A DNA stretch of 64,000 bases. It comes from Mitsuaria chitosanitabida ATCC BAA-476 = NBRC 102408 (lineage in GTDB: Bacteria > Pseudomonadota > Gammaproteobacteria > Burkholderiales > Burkholderiaceae_C). The position numbers and the translations under genes were made by a program. The stretch lies in NCBI RefSeq assembly GCF_001598255.1, contig NZ_BCYP01000018.1:186001-250000 (forward strand). Direction: 5' to 3'. A model generated the notes under the pieces. The model did no database searches, was not told the DNA's origin, and saw nothing but the letters and a program-made list of their open reading frames with translations. Every line of letters begins with the position of its first letter. Within the stretch, counting starts at the first letter, position 1. Shown in pieces: positions 23,122-32,001 of this stretch.

Positions 23122-24585
23122 ATGATTTCGCGCGAACCCACCCTTGCCCGCCTGGTCACGGCCCGTGCCCAGCTGCTGGAACCCTTCGGCCTGACCGACG
23201 CGACGCTCTCGAAGGCGCTGCGCCTGATCACGGAACATCGCGTCGACGACGCCGACCTCTACTTCCAGACCACCCGCGCGGAGGGTTGGAGCCTGGAGGA
23301 GGGCATCGTCAAGAGCGGCAGCTTCTCCATCGACCAGGGCGTCGGCGTGCGCGCCGTCGCGGGCGAGAAGACCGCGTTCGCCTACTCGGACGACATTTCC
23401 GAGGCCGCGCTGCTGGACGCCGCCCGCACCGTGCGCGCGATCGCGTCGGCCGGACAGAGCAAGCGGGTGAAGGTCCCGAGCGAACCCATCGTGTCCGCGA
23501 GCCGCGCCCTCTACGGCGACGCCGACCCCATCGCCAGCCTGGACAGCACGCAGAAGGTCGCCTTGCTGGAGCGCACCGAGCGCCTGGCCCGCGCCAAGGA
23601 TCCGCGTGTCGTGCAGGTGATGGCCGGCCTGGCCGCCGAGCATGAGGTCGTGCTGATCGCGCGCGCCGACGGCACGCTGGCCGCGGACGTGCGACCGCTG
23701 GTGCGTCTGTCCGTGACCGTGATCGCCGAGAGCAACGGCCGCCGCGAGGTGGGCTCGGGCGGCGGCGGCGGCCGCTTCGGTCTGGCTTATTTCACCGACG
23801 AGATGATCGCGTCCTACGTCGAGCAGGCGGTGAGCGCGGCCCTGACCAACCTGGAATCGCGCCCGGCTCCGGCGGGCGAGATGACCGTGGTCCTCGGCCC
23901 GGGCTGGCCCGGCGTGCTGCTGCACGAGGCGGTCGGCCACGGCCTGGAGGGCGATTTCAACCGCAAGGGCTCGTCGACCTTCTCCGGCCGCATCGGCGAG
24001 CGCGTCGCCGCCAAGGGCGTGACGGTGCTGGACGACGGCACCATCCCGGACCGCCGCGGCTCGCTCAACGTCGACGACGAGGGCTGCGCCTCGCAGCGCA
24101 ACGTCCTGATCGAGGACGGCATCCTCAAGGGCTACATCCAGGACGCGATGAACGCGCGCCTGATGAAGGTCGCGCCCACCGGCAACGGCCGTCGCGAGAG
24201 CTATGCCCACGTCCCCATGCCGCGCATGACCAACACCTACATGCTGGGTGGCGACAAGGATCCGGCGGAGATCATCGCCAGCATCGACAAGGGCCTGTAC
24301 GCGACCAACTTCGGCGGCGGCCAGGTGGACATCACCTCGGGCAAGTTCGTGTTCTCCGCGAGCGAGGCCTTCTGGGTCGAGAACGGCAAGATCCAGTACC
24401 CGGTCAAGGGCGCGACCATCATCGGCAACGGCCCGGACGCGCTGACCCGCGTCAGCATGATCGGCACCGACATGCAGCTGGACACCGGCGTCGGCGTCTG
24501 CGGCAAGGAAGGCCAGAGCGTCCCGGTGGGCGTGGGCCAGCCGACGCTGCGCATCGACGGCCTGACCGTCGGCGGCACCGCCTGA
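23122..24585 (+). CDS. tldD: Metalloprotease TldD
   Basis: 487 residues, family length. The zinc-site motif HEAVGHGLEGD (about 268-278) and the N-terminal YFQTTRAEGWSLEEG region identify TldD rather than PmbA/TldE. TldD/TldE form a heterodimeric tunnel protease that degrades unfolded peptides and matures microcin B17 and the CcdA antitoxin in E. coli. tldE is not in the window. Followed by a clear intrinsic terminator. Confidence 0.95.
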   Translation: MISREPTLARLVTARAQLLEPFGLTDATLSKALRLITEHRVDDADLYFQTTRAEGWSLEEGIVKSGSFSIDQGVGVRAVAGEKTAFAYSDDISEAALLDAARTVRAIASAGQSKRVKVPSEPIVSASRALYGDADPIASLDSTQKVALLERTERLARAKDPRVVQVMAGLAAEHEVVLIARADGTLAADVRPLVRLSVTVIAESNGRREVGSGGGGGRFGLAYFTDEMIASYVEQAVSAALTNLESRPAPAGEMTVVLGPGWPGVLLHEAVGHGLEGDFNRKGSSTFSGRIGERVAAKGVTVLDDGTIPDRRGSLNVDDEGCASQRNVLIEDGILKGYIQDAMNARLMKVAPTGNGRRESYAHVPMPRMTNTYMLGGDKDPAEIIASIDKGLYATNFGGGQVDITSGKFVFSASEAFWVENGKIQYPVKGATIIGNGPDALTRVSMIGTDMQLDTGVGVCGKEGQSVPVGVGQPTLRIDGLTVGGTA

Positions 24586-24639
24586 GGCGCGTGCCCGCCC
24601 GGAAGACGGCGCCCCGAGGCGCCGTCGGTCCATGCCATG

Positions 24640-24666
24640 ACCCGGCTCAGGCCGGGTTTCGTTTTT
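24640..24666 (+). terminator. Terminator after tldD
   Basis: Stem ACCCGGC / GCCGGGT with a TCAG loop, then TTCGTTTTT. A second GC hairpin (GACGGCGCC / GGCGCCGTC) precedes it by about 15 bases. Confidence 0.8.
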
Positions 24667-24765
24667 CCGCGAAGGCTCGGTTGCCCGATGTCGTCGCGCG
24701 ACGCGTGCGGCTGTCACCCCTTCGCGCTTGACGCGGTGCAGCAAGCCCAGGCACCATTGGCTCTT

Positions 24766-24843
24766 ATGCGTTCCGCCCCGAAGTTTTACTTTGCTTTTTT
24801 TTGGTTCTCGCACCGCCCCGGCGGAGGAGAGGCGAACGCATAA
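24766..24843 (+). CDS. Aromatic amino-acid leader peptide of the DAHP synthase attenuator
   Basis: 25 codons, ATG to TAA, containing the run KFYFAFFWF (codons 6-14): five Phe, one Tyr and one Trp in eight consecutive positions after the Lys. Such a density is the hallmark of pheA- and trp-type attenuation leaders. The stretch ends 60 bases before a strong intrinsic terminator (24867-24900) and 140 bases before the DAHP synthase gene. Codons for Phe are mostly TTT, rare in this GC-rich genome, which would slow ribosomes further. The ribosome-binding site is weak. Stalling at the aromatic codons would decide whether the downstream hairpin forms. Confidence 0.82.
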   Translation: MRSAPKFYFAFFWFSHRPGGGEANA

Positions 24844-24877
24844 GCTGAACGCCGAGAATCCTCAAGAAACCGCCGGG
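24813..24877 (+). promoter_or_regulatory. Attenuator segments 1, 2 and 3 (competing hairpins)
   Basis: CCGCC (24813-24817) can pair with GGCGG (24820-24824) as a 1:2 hairpin. CCCGGCGG (24817-24824) is also perfectly complementary to CCGCCGGG (24870-24877), the left arm of the terminator, giving a 2:3 antiterminator. A ribosome held at the FFWF codons (24796-24807) would cover segment 1 and leave segment 2 free to block the terminator. Pairings read from sequence; the mechanism is inferred. Confidence 0.65.
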
Positions 24878-24900
24878 CCCAAAGCCCGGCGGTTTTTTTT
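24867..24900 (+). terminator. Attenuator terminator upstream of DAHP synthase
   Basis: A perfect 9-bp GC stem (CCGCCGGGC / GCCCGGCGG), extended by A-T pairs, with a CCAAA loop and eight T residues. It is 85 bases before the DAHP synthase start and after no complete gene other than the leader peptide, so it acts as a conditional terminator. Confidence 0.9.
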
Positions 24901-24984
24901 CGGCCGGGCTCCCCGTCCCCCCAGATGCACCTCATCGGTGGTCCTTGAGCGGCACCCCGCACACCACCAGAAAGCGTGATTCCC

Positions 24985-26133
24985 ATGAATGCCAAGTCGA
25001 CCAGTTATCCCAGCGCTCAACAGGCGGAGCGCTGGTATTCGCCGCAGGACAAGACCTCCCAGACCGACGACGAACGCATCCTGGACATCACGCCCTTGCC
25101 GCCTCCTGAACACCTCATCCGCTTCTTCCCGATCCGTGGCACGGCCATGGAGCAACTCGTCGTCGGCACGCGCCAGCGCATCCGCGACATCATGCAGCGC
25201 AAGGACGACCGCCTGCTCGTGATCATCGGGCCCTGCTCGATCCACGATCCGGCCGCGGCGCTCGAGTACGCCAAGCGCCTGACCGCGCTGCGCGAGCAGC
25301 ACGCCGACACGCTGGAGATCGTGATGCGCGTCTACTTCGAGAAGCCGCGCACGACGGTGGGCTGGAAGGGCCTGATCAACGATCCCTACCTGGACGAGAG
25401 CTACCGCATCGACGAGGGCCTGCGCATCGCGCGCCAGCTGCTGCTCGAGATCAACCGCCTGGGCATGCCGGCCGGCTCGGAGTTCCTGGACGTGATCTCG
25501 CCGCAGTACATCGGCGACCTGATCAGCTGGGGCGCCATCGGCGCGCGCACGACCGAGAGCCAGGTCCACCGCGAGCTGGCCTCGGGCCTGTCCGCCCCCA
25601 TCGGCTTCAAGAACGGCACCGACGGCAACATCAAGATCGCCACCGACGCCATCCAGGCCGCGGCGCGTCCGCACCACTTCCTGTCGGTGCACAAGAACGG
25701 CCAGGTCGCCATCGTCGAGACCAAGGGCAACCAGGACTGCCACGTGATCCTGCGCGGCGGCAAGGCGCCCAACTACGACGCCGAGAGCGTCGCCGCCGCC
25801 TGTGCCGACCTGGTCACCTCCAAGCTGCCGGAGCGCCTGATGGTGGACTGCTCGCATGCCAACAGCAGCAAGAAGCACGAGCGCCAACTGGACGTCGCGC
25901 GCGACATCGCCGCGCAGATCCGCGCCGGCAGCACGCGCATCTTCGGCGTGATGGTCGAGAGCCACCTCAAGGGCGGCGCGCAGAAGTTCAGCCCGGGCAA
26001 GGACGATCCCTCCAAGCTGGAGTACGGCAAGAGCATCACCGACGCCTGCCTGGACTGGGACGATTCCATCGAGGTGCTGGACGTGCTGAGCGAGGCCGTC
26101 CGCGCCGCGCGCGTCGAGGCCGCCGTCAGCTGA
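24985..26133 (+). CDS. aroG: 3-deoxy-7-phosphoheptulonate (DAHP) synthase, class I
   Basis: 382 residues, close in sequence to E. coli AroF/G/H: GPCSIHDP (PEP/metal site), EKPRTTVGWKGLINDP, GAIGARTTESQVHRELASGLS, GFKNGTDG and VDCSHANSSK are all present. It joins phosphoenolpyruvate and erythrose 4-phosphate, the first step of the shikimate pathway. The N-terminus is about 25 residues longer than E. coli AroG. Which amino acid inhibits the enzyme cannot be decided by eye. The ATG at 24985 is preferred; a GTG at 24976 would add three residues. Expression is very probably controlled by the upstream Phe/Tyr/Trp attenuator. Confidence 0.95.
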   Translation: MNAKSTSYPSAQQAERWYSPQDKTSQTDDERILDITPLPPPEHLIRFFPIRGTAMEQLVVGTRQRIRDIMQRKDDRLLVIIGPCSIHDPAAALEYAKRLTALREQHADTLEIVMRVYFEKPRTTVGWKGLINDPYLDESYRIDEGLRIARQLLLEINRLGMPAGSEFLDVISPQYIGDLISWGAIGARTTESQVHRELASGLSAPIGFKNGTDGNIKIATDAIQAAARPHHFLSVHKNGQVAIVETKGNQDCHVILRGGKAPNYDAESVAAACADLVTSKLPERLMVDCSHANSSKKHERQLDVARDIAAQIRAGSTRIFGVMVESHLKGGAQKFSPGKDDPSKLEYGKSITDACLDWDDSIEVLDVLSEAVRAARVEAAVS

Positions 26134-30753: not shown

Positions 30754-32001
30754 TCAGCTCAGCGTGACGCGCGCGAACTTGCGCTTGCCCACCTGCAGCA
30801 CCATCGAGCCGGCCTCGAGCTTCAGGCCCTTGTCGCTGATGGTGGTGCCGTCGATCTTGACGCCGCCCTGGTCGATCATGCGGTTGCCCTCGCTGGTCGA
30901 CGGGACCAGGTTGGCCGCCTTCAGCAGCGCGGCGACGCCGATGGGCGCGCCGCTCAGCGCGACTTCCGGGATGTCGTCCGGGATGCCGCCCTTGGCGCGG
31001 TTGTTGAAGTCGGCCTCGGCCTCGTCGGCCGCCTGCGCGCTGTGGAAGCGGGCGGTGATCTCCTTGGCGAGCATCACCTTGGCTTCCTTCGGATTGCGGC
31101 CGCCCTCGATCTCGCGCTTGAGCGCCGCGATCTCCTCGATCGACTTGAAGCTCAGCAGGTCGAACCACTTCCACATCTGCACGTCGCTGATCGACAGGAT
31201 CTTGGCGAACATGCTGTTCGCCGGCTCGGTGATGCCCACGTAGTTGTTCTTGGACTTGGACATCTTCTCGACGCCGTCCAGACCCTCCAGCAGCGGCATG
31301 GTCAGGATGCACTGCGGCTCCTGGCCGTACTCGGCCTGCAGGTGGCGCCCCATCAGCAGGTTGAACTTCTGGTCCGTGCCGCCGAGTTCCAGGTCGGCCT
31401 TCAGCGCCACCGAGTCGTAGCCCTGCATCAGCGGATAGAGGAACTCGTGCACCGAGATCGGGGTCCCGGCGGCGTAGCGCTTGGTGAAGTCGTCGCGCTC
31501 CATCATGCGGGCCACGGTGTACTTGGCGGCCAGCTGGATCAGGCCGCGCGCGCCGAGCGGGTCGGACCATTCGCTGTTGTAGCGGATCTCGGTGCGGGCC
31601 GGGTCCAGCACCAGGCTGGCCTGCTTGTAGTAGGTCTCGGCGTTGTGCTTGATCTGCTCGGGCGTCAGCGGGGGGCGCGTCGCGTTGCGGCCGGAGGGGT
31701 CGCCGATCATCGAGGTGAAGTCGCCGATCAGGAAGATCACCTGGTGGCCCAGGTCCTGCAGCTGGCGCATCTTGTTGAGCACCACCGTGTGACCGACGTG
31801 GATGTCGGGCGCCGTCGGGTCCAGACCCAGCTTGATCCGCAGGGGCTGGCCGGTCGCTTCCGAGCGCGCCAGCTTCTTCAGCCACTCGTCCTGCGGCAGC
31901 AATTCCTCGCAGCCGCGCAAGGACTGCGCCATGGCGGCGCGGACCCGGTCCGTGATCGGAAATTCGGGGGTCGACGGGGACTCGGTTCGGATGTCAGACA
32001 T
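30754..32001 (-). CDS. tyrS: Tyrosyl-tRNA synthetase
   Basis: 415 residues. Class I signature HVGH (about 68-71), the KMSKS loop intact (EKMSKSKNN), and [26 protein letters not shown] as in TyrZ-type enzymes. A C-terminal S4 RNA-binding domain (about 345-410: [13 protein letters not shown]). Charges tRNA-Tyr with tyrosine in the cytoplasm. Convergent with the tricorn-like gene and divergent from the M23 peptidase; the latter pairing recurs across Burkholderiales. Confidence 0.97.

Follow-up and report, generated by a model that had tools for sequence, protein, structure and literature searches.

The window, a stretch of 64,000 nucleotides of Mitsuaria chitosanitabida DNA, carries a gene for a type I DAHP synthase, aroG, on the same strand as tldD and downstream of it, and the gap between the two genes holds a short leader ORF followed by an intrinsic terminator (Table 1). 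DAHP synthase sets the flux into the shikimate pathway. The identity of aroG is clear from a profile search, in which TIGR00034 matches with 532 bits against a cut-off of 173. Codons 7-14 of the leader read FYFAFFWF, so that seven of eight residues are aromatic (Phe, Tyr or Trp). Only 1 of 20000 mononucleotide shuffles of 24586-24987 contained at least 7 F/Y/W per 9 codons in any plus-strand frame. An earlier note on this DNA had proposed a 25-codon leader peptide with an aromatic run ahead of a DAHP synthase gene, and this description holds for the ORF, the run and the TIGR00034 gene downstream. A tyrosine--tRNA ligase gene (tyrS, TIGR00234) lies about 4.6 kb behind aroG, on the minus strand at 30754-32001.

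Table 1. Features of the aroG leader region and its neighbourhood, in window coordinates.
Feature	Position	Strand	Remarks
tldD, neighbour 5' of the leader	23122..24585	+	terminator-like site of its own at 24639-24658
Putative promoter: -35 TTGACG (24728-24733), 18 nt spacer, -10 CACCAT (24752-24757)	24728..24757	+	8 nt before the leader ATG
Start/stop stem, 11 bp, 24763-24773 x 24834-24844	24763..24844	+	predicted fold; genus-level feature only
Leader peptide ORF MRSAPKFYFAFFWFSHRPGGGEANA, 25 codons + TAA	24766..24843	+	no Shine-Dalgarno, probably leaderless
Control codons TTT TAC TTT GCT TTT TTT TGG TTC (F Y F A F F W F)	24784..24807	+	codons 7-14
Candidate 1:2 hairpin; region 1 = 24805-24816	24805..24831	+	predicted fold; 3' side overlaps region 2
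Region 2 CCCGGCGG, antiterminator 5' arm	24817..24824	+	within the leader ORF; pairs with 24870-24877; concerted change across families
Region 3 CCGCCGGGC, antiterminator 3' arm and terminator 5' arm	24870..24878	+	pairing, concerted change
Region 4 GCCCGGCGG + eight T, intrinsic terminator 3' arm and U tract	24884..24900	+	sequence, fold
aroG, type I DAHP synthase, regulated gene	24985..26133	+	alternative start GTG 24976

Region 2 (CCCGGCGG) forms a perfect 8 bp pairing with CCGCCGGG in region 3, and region 3 also provides the 5' arm of the terminator, whose stem (24870-24878 with 24884-24892, loop CCAAA, eight T at 24893-24900) is predicted at -27.0 kcal/mol. Folding 24740-24900 gives -66.6 kcal/mol (z -4.10), with an equally stable fold in 0 of 200 shuffles. 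The perfect terminator with eight T residues described earlier is confirmed. The accompanying claim of two alternative pairings for the 8-base segment 24817-24824 stands in part: the 8 bp pairing with region 3 is there, whereas the local hairpin engages just 4 bp of region 2 (CCGC/GCGG), together with an outer UUCUC/GAGAG-like arm. A simple terminator scan of 24586-25000 did not list the leader terminator, and our guess is that this is because its maximal stem extends into the T tract. Within the leader ORF, 3' of region 2, a purine run resembling a Shine-Dalgarno sequence (GGAGGAGAGG, 24823-24832) might slow the ribosome close to the stop codon.

The 11 bp stem that joins the start and stop regions of the ORF would, according to the fold, hide the start codon when the RNA is untranslated. 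Its inner arms, ATGCGTT and AACGCAT, are kept in the leaders of the same genus (with one change in locus L281); the wider named set described below has just scattered pairings of 4-12 bp there, and we rejected the stem as a general feature. Rfam families were likewise rejected as an identity for the window leader. Neither Phe_leader (RF01859) nor Trp_leader (RF00513) matched 24000-26000 up to E 10, and every Rfam match in the window region was below threshold, the highest-scoring being Hrs12 with 26.6 bits (gathering score 70). In 14 relatives, Phe_leader gave one sub-threshold match on the sense strand that covers a whole aroG leader (L175 in genome G110, family f22; 30 bits against 55, E 0.074), a hint of a build shared with pheA leaders.

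The leader recurs widely among relatives. From more than 595 loci in a scan of named genomes, the best 80 were retained; of these, L046 was too short to read, and an aromatic leader ORF precedes aroG in 78 of the 79 readable ones, the exception being L081. By record title the loci with a leader belong mainly to Comamonadaceae-type and Roseateles/Aquabacterium-type genera, with some Polynucleobacter. The leader is also present in each of the 15 genomes of the same genus that were searched. In 14 of these, a 44-base stretch that begins at the Trp codon and extends beyond the stop codon is identical to the window, even at silent sites (L281 differs). In a sample of the order comprising 150 genomes, 116 had a DAHP synthase match; the upstream DNA of 109 such matches, paralogues included and L130 with only 224 nt, yielded 33 leaders, leaving 76 regions without one. 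These 33 leaders cover 13 families (f1, f3, f4, f7, f9, f10, f11, f12, f19, f22, f31, f39 and f43). Outside the order, class-level loci placed by tblastn and inspected by eye had a leader in one case out of 29 (L206; L217 was represented by 350 nt of upstream DNA). The absence of the leader ORF from relatives, which the earlier note had named as evidence against its proposal, is thus not what we find.

For the comparisons that follow, 129 ORFs passed a loose aromatic filter and 17 were dropped by hand, having no set of regions 2, 3 and 4 (L117, with a weak repeat, is among them). The resulting 112 leaders consist of the 78 named loci, the window and the 33 from the order sample. A terminator with regions 3 and 4 was found in 111 of them; the leader at L070, in whose sequence no terminator was found, was kept in the set but omitted from the 111. 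This recurrence bears on whether the ORF could be a chance occurrence in front of a plain tldD terminator or in a free small RNA. A terminator together with a defined 5' end would indeed give an RNA of about 135 nt. That reading is nevertheless very improbable, as the ORF and regions 2-4 with aromatic codons recur at 111 of the 112 collected loci, as the shuffles reproduce the aromatic run so rarely (1 in 20000), and as tldD has a terminator-like site of its own, so that the leader terminator need not belong to it. A trans-acting role of the terminated RNA beside attenuation is possible.

A covariance model built from 48 leaders has a single match in the genome of the window and finds aroG leaders in further genomes. 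With E up to 1e-8 it matches 76 of 300 genomes of the order, a number in which the matches were checked in part and G072 (E 6.4e-9) proved false. In a phylum sample of 150 genomes, 9 matches outside the order reach E up to 1e-8 and all nine precede DAHP synthases, as do 3 of 7 weaker matches fetched from outside the order (G438, G513 and G522). Among 20 further matches that were fetched, a DAHP synthase follows 9 of 10 with at least 43 bits, the exception being G072, and 3 of 10 with less than 41 bits. One match (L301, G434:C43) is to a terminator behind an ORF ending in FWWSFWWS, which looks like a trp leader.

On a tree of 88 chosen DAHP synthases, 46 of them with a leader (row L025 was lost through a wrong start), the leader label is clustered, requiring 11 changes against a shuffled mean of 29.6. 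The second DAHP synthase of the genome is encoded on another contig and starts about 13 nt after the end of the upstream gene; no leader was found before it, and all nine tree rows in the paralogue clade that includes it are without one. Leaders are also missing from the orthologue loci L081, L108 and L126, where tldD abuts aroG. As this arrangement leaves no room for a leader between the genes, the sequences suggest that it was lost there. At L148 (G123, family f43) the same kind of terminator stands before aroG and an aromatic run was not found; this is possibly a decayed leader.

The pairing between regions 2 and 3 is conserved along with the terminator. Contiguous 2:3 pairing of at least 6 bp through the core is present in 91 of 111 leaders, compared with a mean of 9.0 and a maximum of 14 after shuffling of the tails, and pairing of at least 7 bp in 73 of 111 (shuffled mean 4.9, maximum 10). 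The core is broken in 8 of the 111, and 12 have the five core pairs only. Since the core itself, GGCGG/CCGCC, is near-invariant, it is uninformative for covariation. The base before it (position -1) is more telling: across regions 2, 3 and 4 it reads C-G-C in 68 leaders, and the 15 that read T-A-T come from families f4, f10, f12, f22, f31 and f43 and, once, from the named set (L024). Swapping arms between leaders weakens both 2:3 and 3:4: three separate draws of 26 representatives each gave 0 of 2000 permutations that matched the observed mean; inside the named set, 20 (2:3) and 2 (3:4) of 2000 permutations match it. These permutations leave shared ancestry in place. In alignment A2 (48 rows), 92.9% of the 2:3 cells and 98.8% of the 3:4 cells are paired, and sliding the alignment by up to three columns leaves at most 59% and 62%, respectively. 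Two-sided changes occur at 3 of 9 pairs in 3:4 and at 1 of 7 pairs in 2:3, where the number of pairs does not exceed that of the shuffles and the number of cells does (15 versus 6.0); the 2:3 signal could come from few ancestral changes. The earlier note had also expected hairpins that covary in relatives, and their absence is not borne out: 2:3 and 3:4 change in concert.

The same cannot be said of the 1:2 hairpin. In 99 of 111 segments its local fold is more stable than the mean of the shuffles, with z < -1 in 59 and a mean z of -1.17. In the swap test, 22 of 1000 permutations were as low within the named set, and 256 of 2000 between families (26 representatives), which is no better than composition; we rejected 1:2 as a covarying element. 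Alignment A1, which is gap-free, does not align the 1:2 arms.

Region 2 lies inside the leader ORF and is read differently in different leaders. The GGCGG core is in frame 0 in 66 leaders and in frame 2 in 7 for the named set plus the window; for the order set, frames 0, 1 and 2 account for 5, 3 and 23, and 8 leaders are missing the exact core after the aromatic run. The core is read mainly as Gly-Gly (GGRE) in the named set and falls within PLAEEG or LAAG in other families. Because the frame differs across families, it is the RNA and not the peptide that is conserved there. Judged from these sequences, what is kept after the aromatic run is an RNA element, and the run itself is kept as codons. 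This has consequences for an alternative in which the nascent peptide arrests the ribosome on sensing either an aromatic amino acid in free form or a metabolite derived from chorismate. TnaC is an example of such a switch, and the string FYFxYFWFSxxGGRE, conserved in much of the named set, would suit it. An arrest peptide, however, is expected to keep its residues, whereas the residue order within the run varies and the part behind it shifts in frame and sequence (GGRE, PLAEEG, LAAGGLRS) around a constant RNA core. The changing frame past the run in particular disfavours peptide arrest, which we consider improbable.

The start of the leader transcript appears to lie at the ORF itself. A strict scan found no sigma-70 promoter in 24586-25000. 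The window and 15 same-genus genomes all (16 of 16) have TTGACG no more than 45 nt from the leader ATG, and 15 of the 16 have CAnnAT 6-9 nt ahead of it. Across the larger set, TGnTAnnnT ends 6-9 nt ahead of the ATG in 88 of 112 leaders, against a shuffled mean of 0.26 and a maximum of 2. This form of the box, which the window leader does not have, is found in 77 of 79 leaders from the 78 named loci and the window, and in 11 of 33 from the order sample. By eye, TATATG-, TATCAA- or TACATA-like boxes occupy the same position in most of twelve leaders from outside the order. In 110 of the 112 leaders there is no Shine-Dalgarno sequence (at least a 4 nt match to AGGAGG at -18 to -4). With a -10-like box 6-9 nt before the ATG and no Shine-Dalgarno sequence, the leader mRNA is probably leaderless, a sigma-70 start likely falling on or beside the leader ATG. 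Leaderless mRNAs are known from B. cenocepacia and C. metallidurans, according to PMC4603805 and PMC7563307.

Which amino acids does the leader read? All three aromatic residues are represented in 90 of the 112 leaders; 18 have Phe and Tyr, 2 Phe and Trp, and 2 Phe only, so that Tyr, Trp or both are missing from 22. For the 79 leaders of the named loci plus the window and the 33 of the order sample, respectively, the numbers are 71 and 19 with all three, 7 and 11 with Phe and Tyr, 1 and 1 with Phe and Trp, and 0 and 2 with Phe only. The positions of Tyr and Trp shift within the run (FYFWFF, YFFWFWF, FFFWF, FYFWYY). The first base of the last aromatic codon is found 11-15 nt before GGCGG in 91 of the 104 leaders with a core. 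In a model in which the footprint of the ribosome is assumed to reach 13 nt past the first base of the A-site codon, the exposed RNA folds into the 2:3 antiterminator whichever of the seven aromatic codons of the window the ribosome stalls at, although at the last Phe codon the footprint is already over the first base of region 2. In 62 of these 104, GGCGG starts at least 21 nt before the stop codon, which puts the core at the margin of the stretch shielded by a terminating ribosome, or outside it. Five aroG leaders (L009, L023, L047, L060 and L072) mix His codons into the run, as in YHFWHFHIQH; four of them have two to four His, and region 2 in these five reads CCGGCG, lacking the last G.

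The composition of the run leaves some room for an attenuator that senses mainly Phe, with the Tyr and Trp codons tolerated or serving RNA structure and pacing. Phe is present in 112 of 112 leaders and, at 20.0% of residues, is more frequent than any other; there are families with Phe only or with just Phe and Tyr; and TTTTGGTTCTC recurs as a nucleotide string in part of the leaders. The AroR leader of C. glutamicum (Phe-Tyr-Phe) is described as answering to Phe and not to Tyr (PMC11802643). Against this speaks that 92 of 112 leaders retain Trp, a residue that is rare in general, even though its position moves, and that each of the 12 leaders confirmed outside the order has all three residues, albeit in few families and in leaders chosen by a model of the first set. 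We regard sensing of mainly Phe as the less likely case, though one to be taken seriously, and sensing of all three aromatic amino acids by the aroG leader as likely from the pattern of codons.

The leaders also differ from neighbouring genes in their Phe codons, a point that, like the -10-like box, goes beyond the earlier note. In the 79 leaders of the named loci and the window, 232 of 346 Phe codons are TTT; the aroG match, counted over its first 350 codons, has 121 of 665. The window leader has TTT at 4 of its 5 Phe codons, compared with 0 of 55 for tldD, aroG and the peptidase gene that comes next. The last Phe codon of the leader is mostly TTC (61 of 79 leaders). The preference for TTT might reflect slow decoding or a U-rich run free of structure.

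In E. coli, DAHP synthase genes are under repressor control. A search of the genome to which the window belongs gave no match for TrpR (E. coli, one of the controls, was positive); for the TyrR-type HTH it gave two matches, both below the cut-off. The same genome has a leader ORF (MFITRKHIKGSNDRGAWPWRSWHDFT; L222, contig C24) about 337 nt before a trpE model match; its control codons look Trp-only, and TGCTACACT ends 10 nt ahead of its ATG. By its sequence, trpE may have its own, nearly leaderless attenuator.

Together, our data speak for the aroG leader being a ribosome-mediated transcription attenuator that monitors charged tRNA-Phe, tRNA-Tyr and tRNA-Trp together, a reading to which we assign a probability of roughly 90% and which supports the interpretation of the earlier note. 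The ORF holds codons for the products of the pathway to which the gene behind it belongs; the 2:3 and 3:4 pairings, the latter with its U tract, are mutually exclusive according to structure prediction, shuffles and concerted change; and the control codons are so placed that a stalled ribosome, as modelled, frees region 2. Leader, control codons, alternative pairings and terminator, as well as their conservation and concerted change, can be read directly from the DNA, and on this ground transcription attenuation of aroG by the leader appears well supported. In the scheme that we infer for the start site, leaderless initiation, stalling and the response to each amino acid, RNA polymerase would start at, or a few bases from, the leader ATG, and a ribosome would initiate on the leaderless 5' end. 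A shortage of any aromatic tRNA would make the ribosome halt within FYFAFFWF, leaving region 2 free to pair with region 3, so that no terminator would form and aroG would be transcribed. With all three tRNAs plentiful, the ribosome would pass through region 2, 3:4 would pair, and transcription would end at the U tract. We also lean, by a narrow measure, towards a wider view, in which this is an old, Proteobacteria-wide attenuator family whose single leaderless ORF polls three aromatic tRNAs, sets entry into the shikimate pathway and replaces repression of the TyrR/TrpR type. The aroG leader appears to be a repressor-free switch that adds up three end-product signals; it offers an explanation of aroG control for a large bacterial group and a testable case of multi-input attenuation.

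The proposed architecture is that of E. coli trpL and pheL, with leader codons, alternative 2:3/3:4 pairings and an intrinsic terminator; these leaders respond to one amino acid each and precede other genes. Nor is the aroG leader the first attenuator known or predicted for a DAHP synthase, given those of C. glutamicum, Acholeplasma and Vibrio. Our literature search found no account of this leader before aroG in Burkholderiales or other Proteobacteria; an earlier prediction is possible, subscription papers having been outside the search. The closest case is the leader peptide attenuator aroR-aroF of C. glutamicum (Neshat et al. 2014, via PMC11802643 and PMC4046766), which shares aromatic leader codons before a DAHP synthase gene and ribosome-mediated transcription attenuation. 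As far as the descriptions go, it differs in having Phe-Tyr-Phe with no Trp mentioned, in responding to Phe and not Tyr, and in belonging to an actinobacterium. The uORFC-13-1 motif before aroF in Acholeplasma is a computational finding with 24 unique representatives from one genus and environmental sequences (PMC8632094); as reported there, it likewise combines a uORF containing at least one Phe codon with a terminator before a DAHP synthase gene, and differs from the aroG leader in being Phe only. The same paper cites an older hypothesis of attenuation for E. coli aroF. Putative attenuators before Vibrio DAHP synthase-tyrA operons, from the Merino database (PMC1173090), were also predicted for a proteobacterial DAHP synthase gene, in another operon and group and, in that account, with the leader codons not described. 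With regard to the 5' end, the attenuator transcript rnTrpL of Sinorhizobium meliloti trpL starts, according to PMC7298713, at the ATG of the leader ORF, like the start proposed here; it is described as having Trp codons only and preceding trpE(G). A C. glutamicum leader is said, in the title of a reference listed in PMC4046766, to be without a ribosome binding site. Alongside these two, the aroG leader offers an example of an attenuator apparently without a 5' UTR. Measured against all these systems, the mechanism itself is classical, and the novel points would be the sensing of three amino acids, the leaderless start and the breadth of the distribution.
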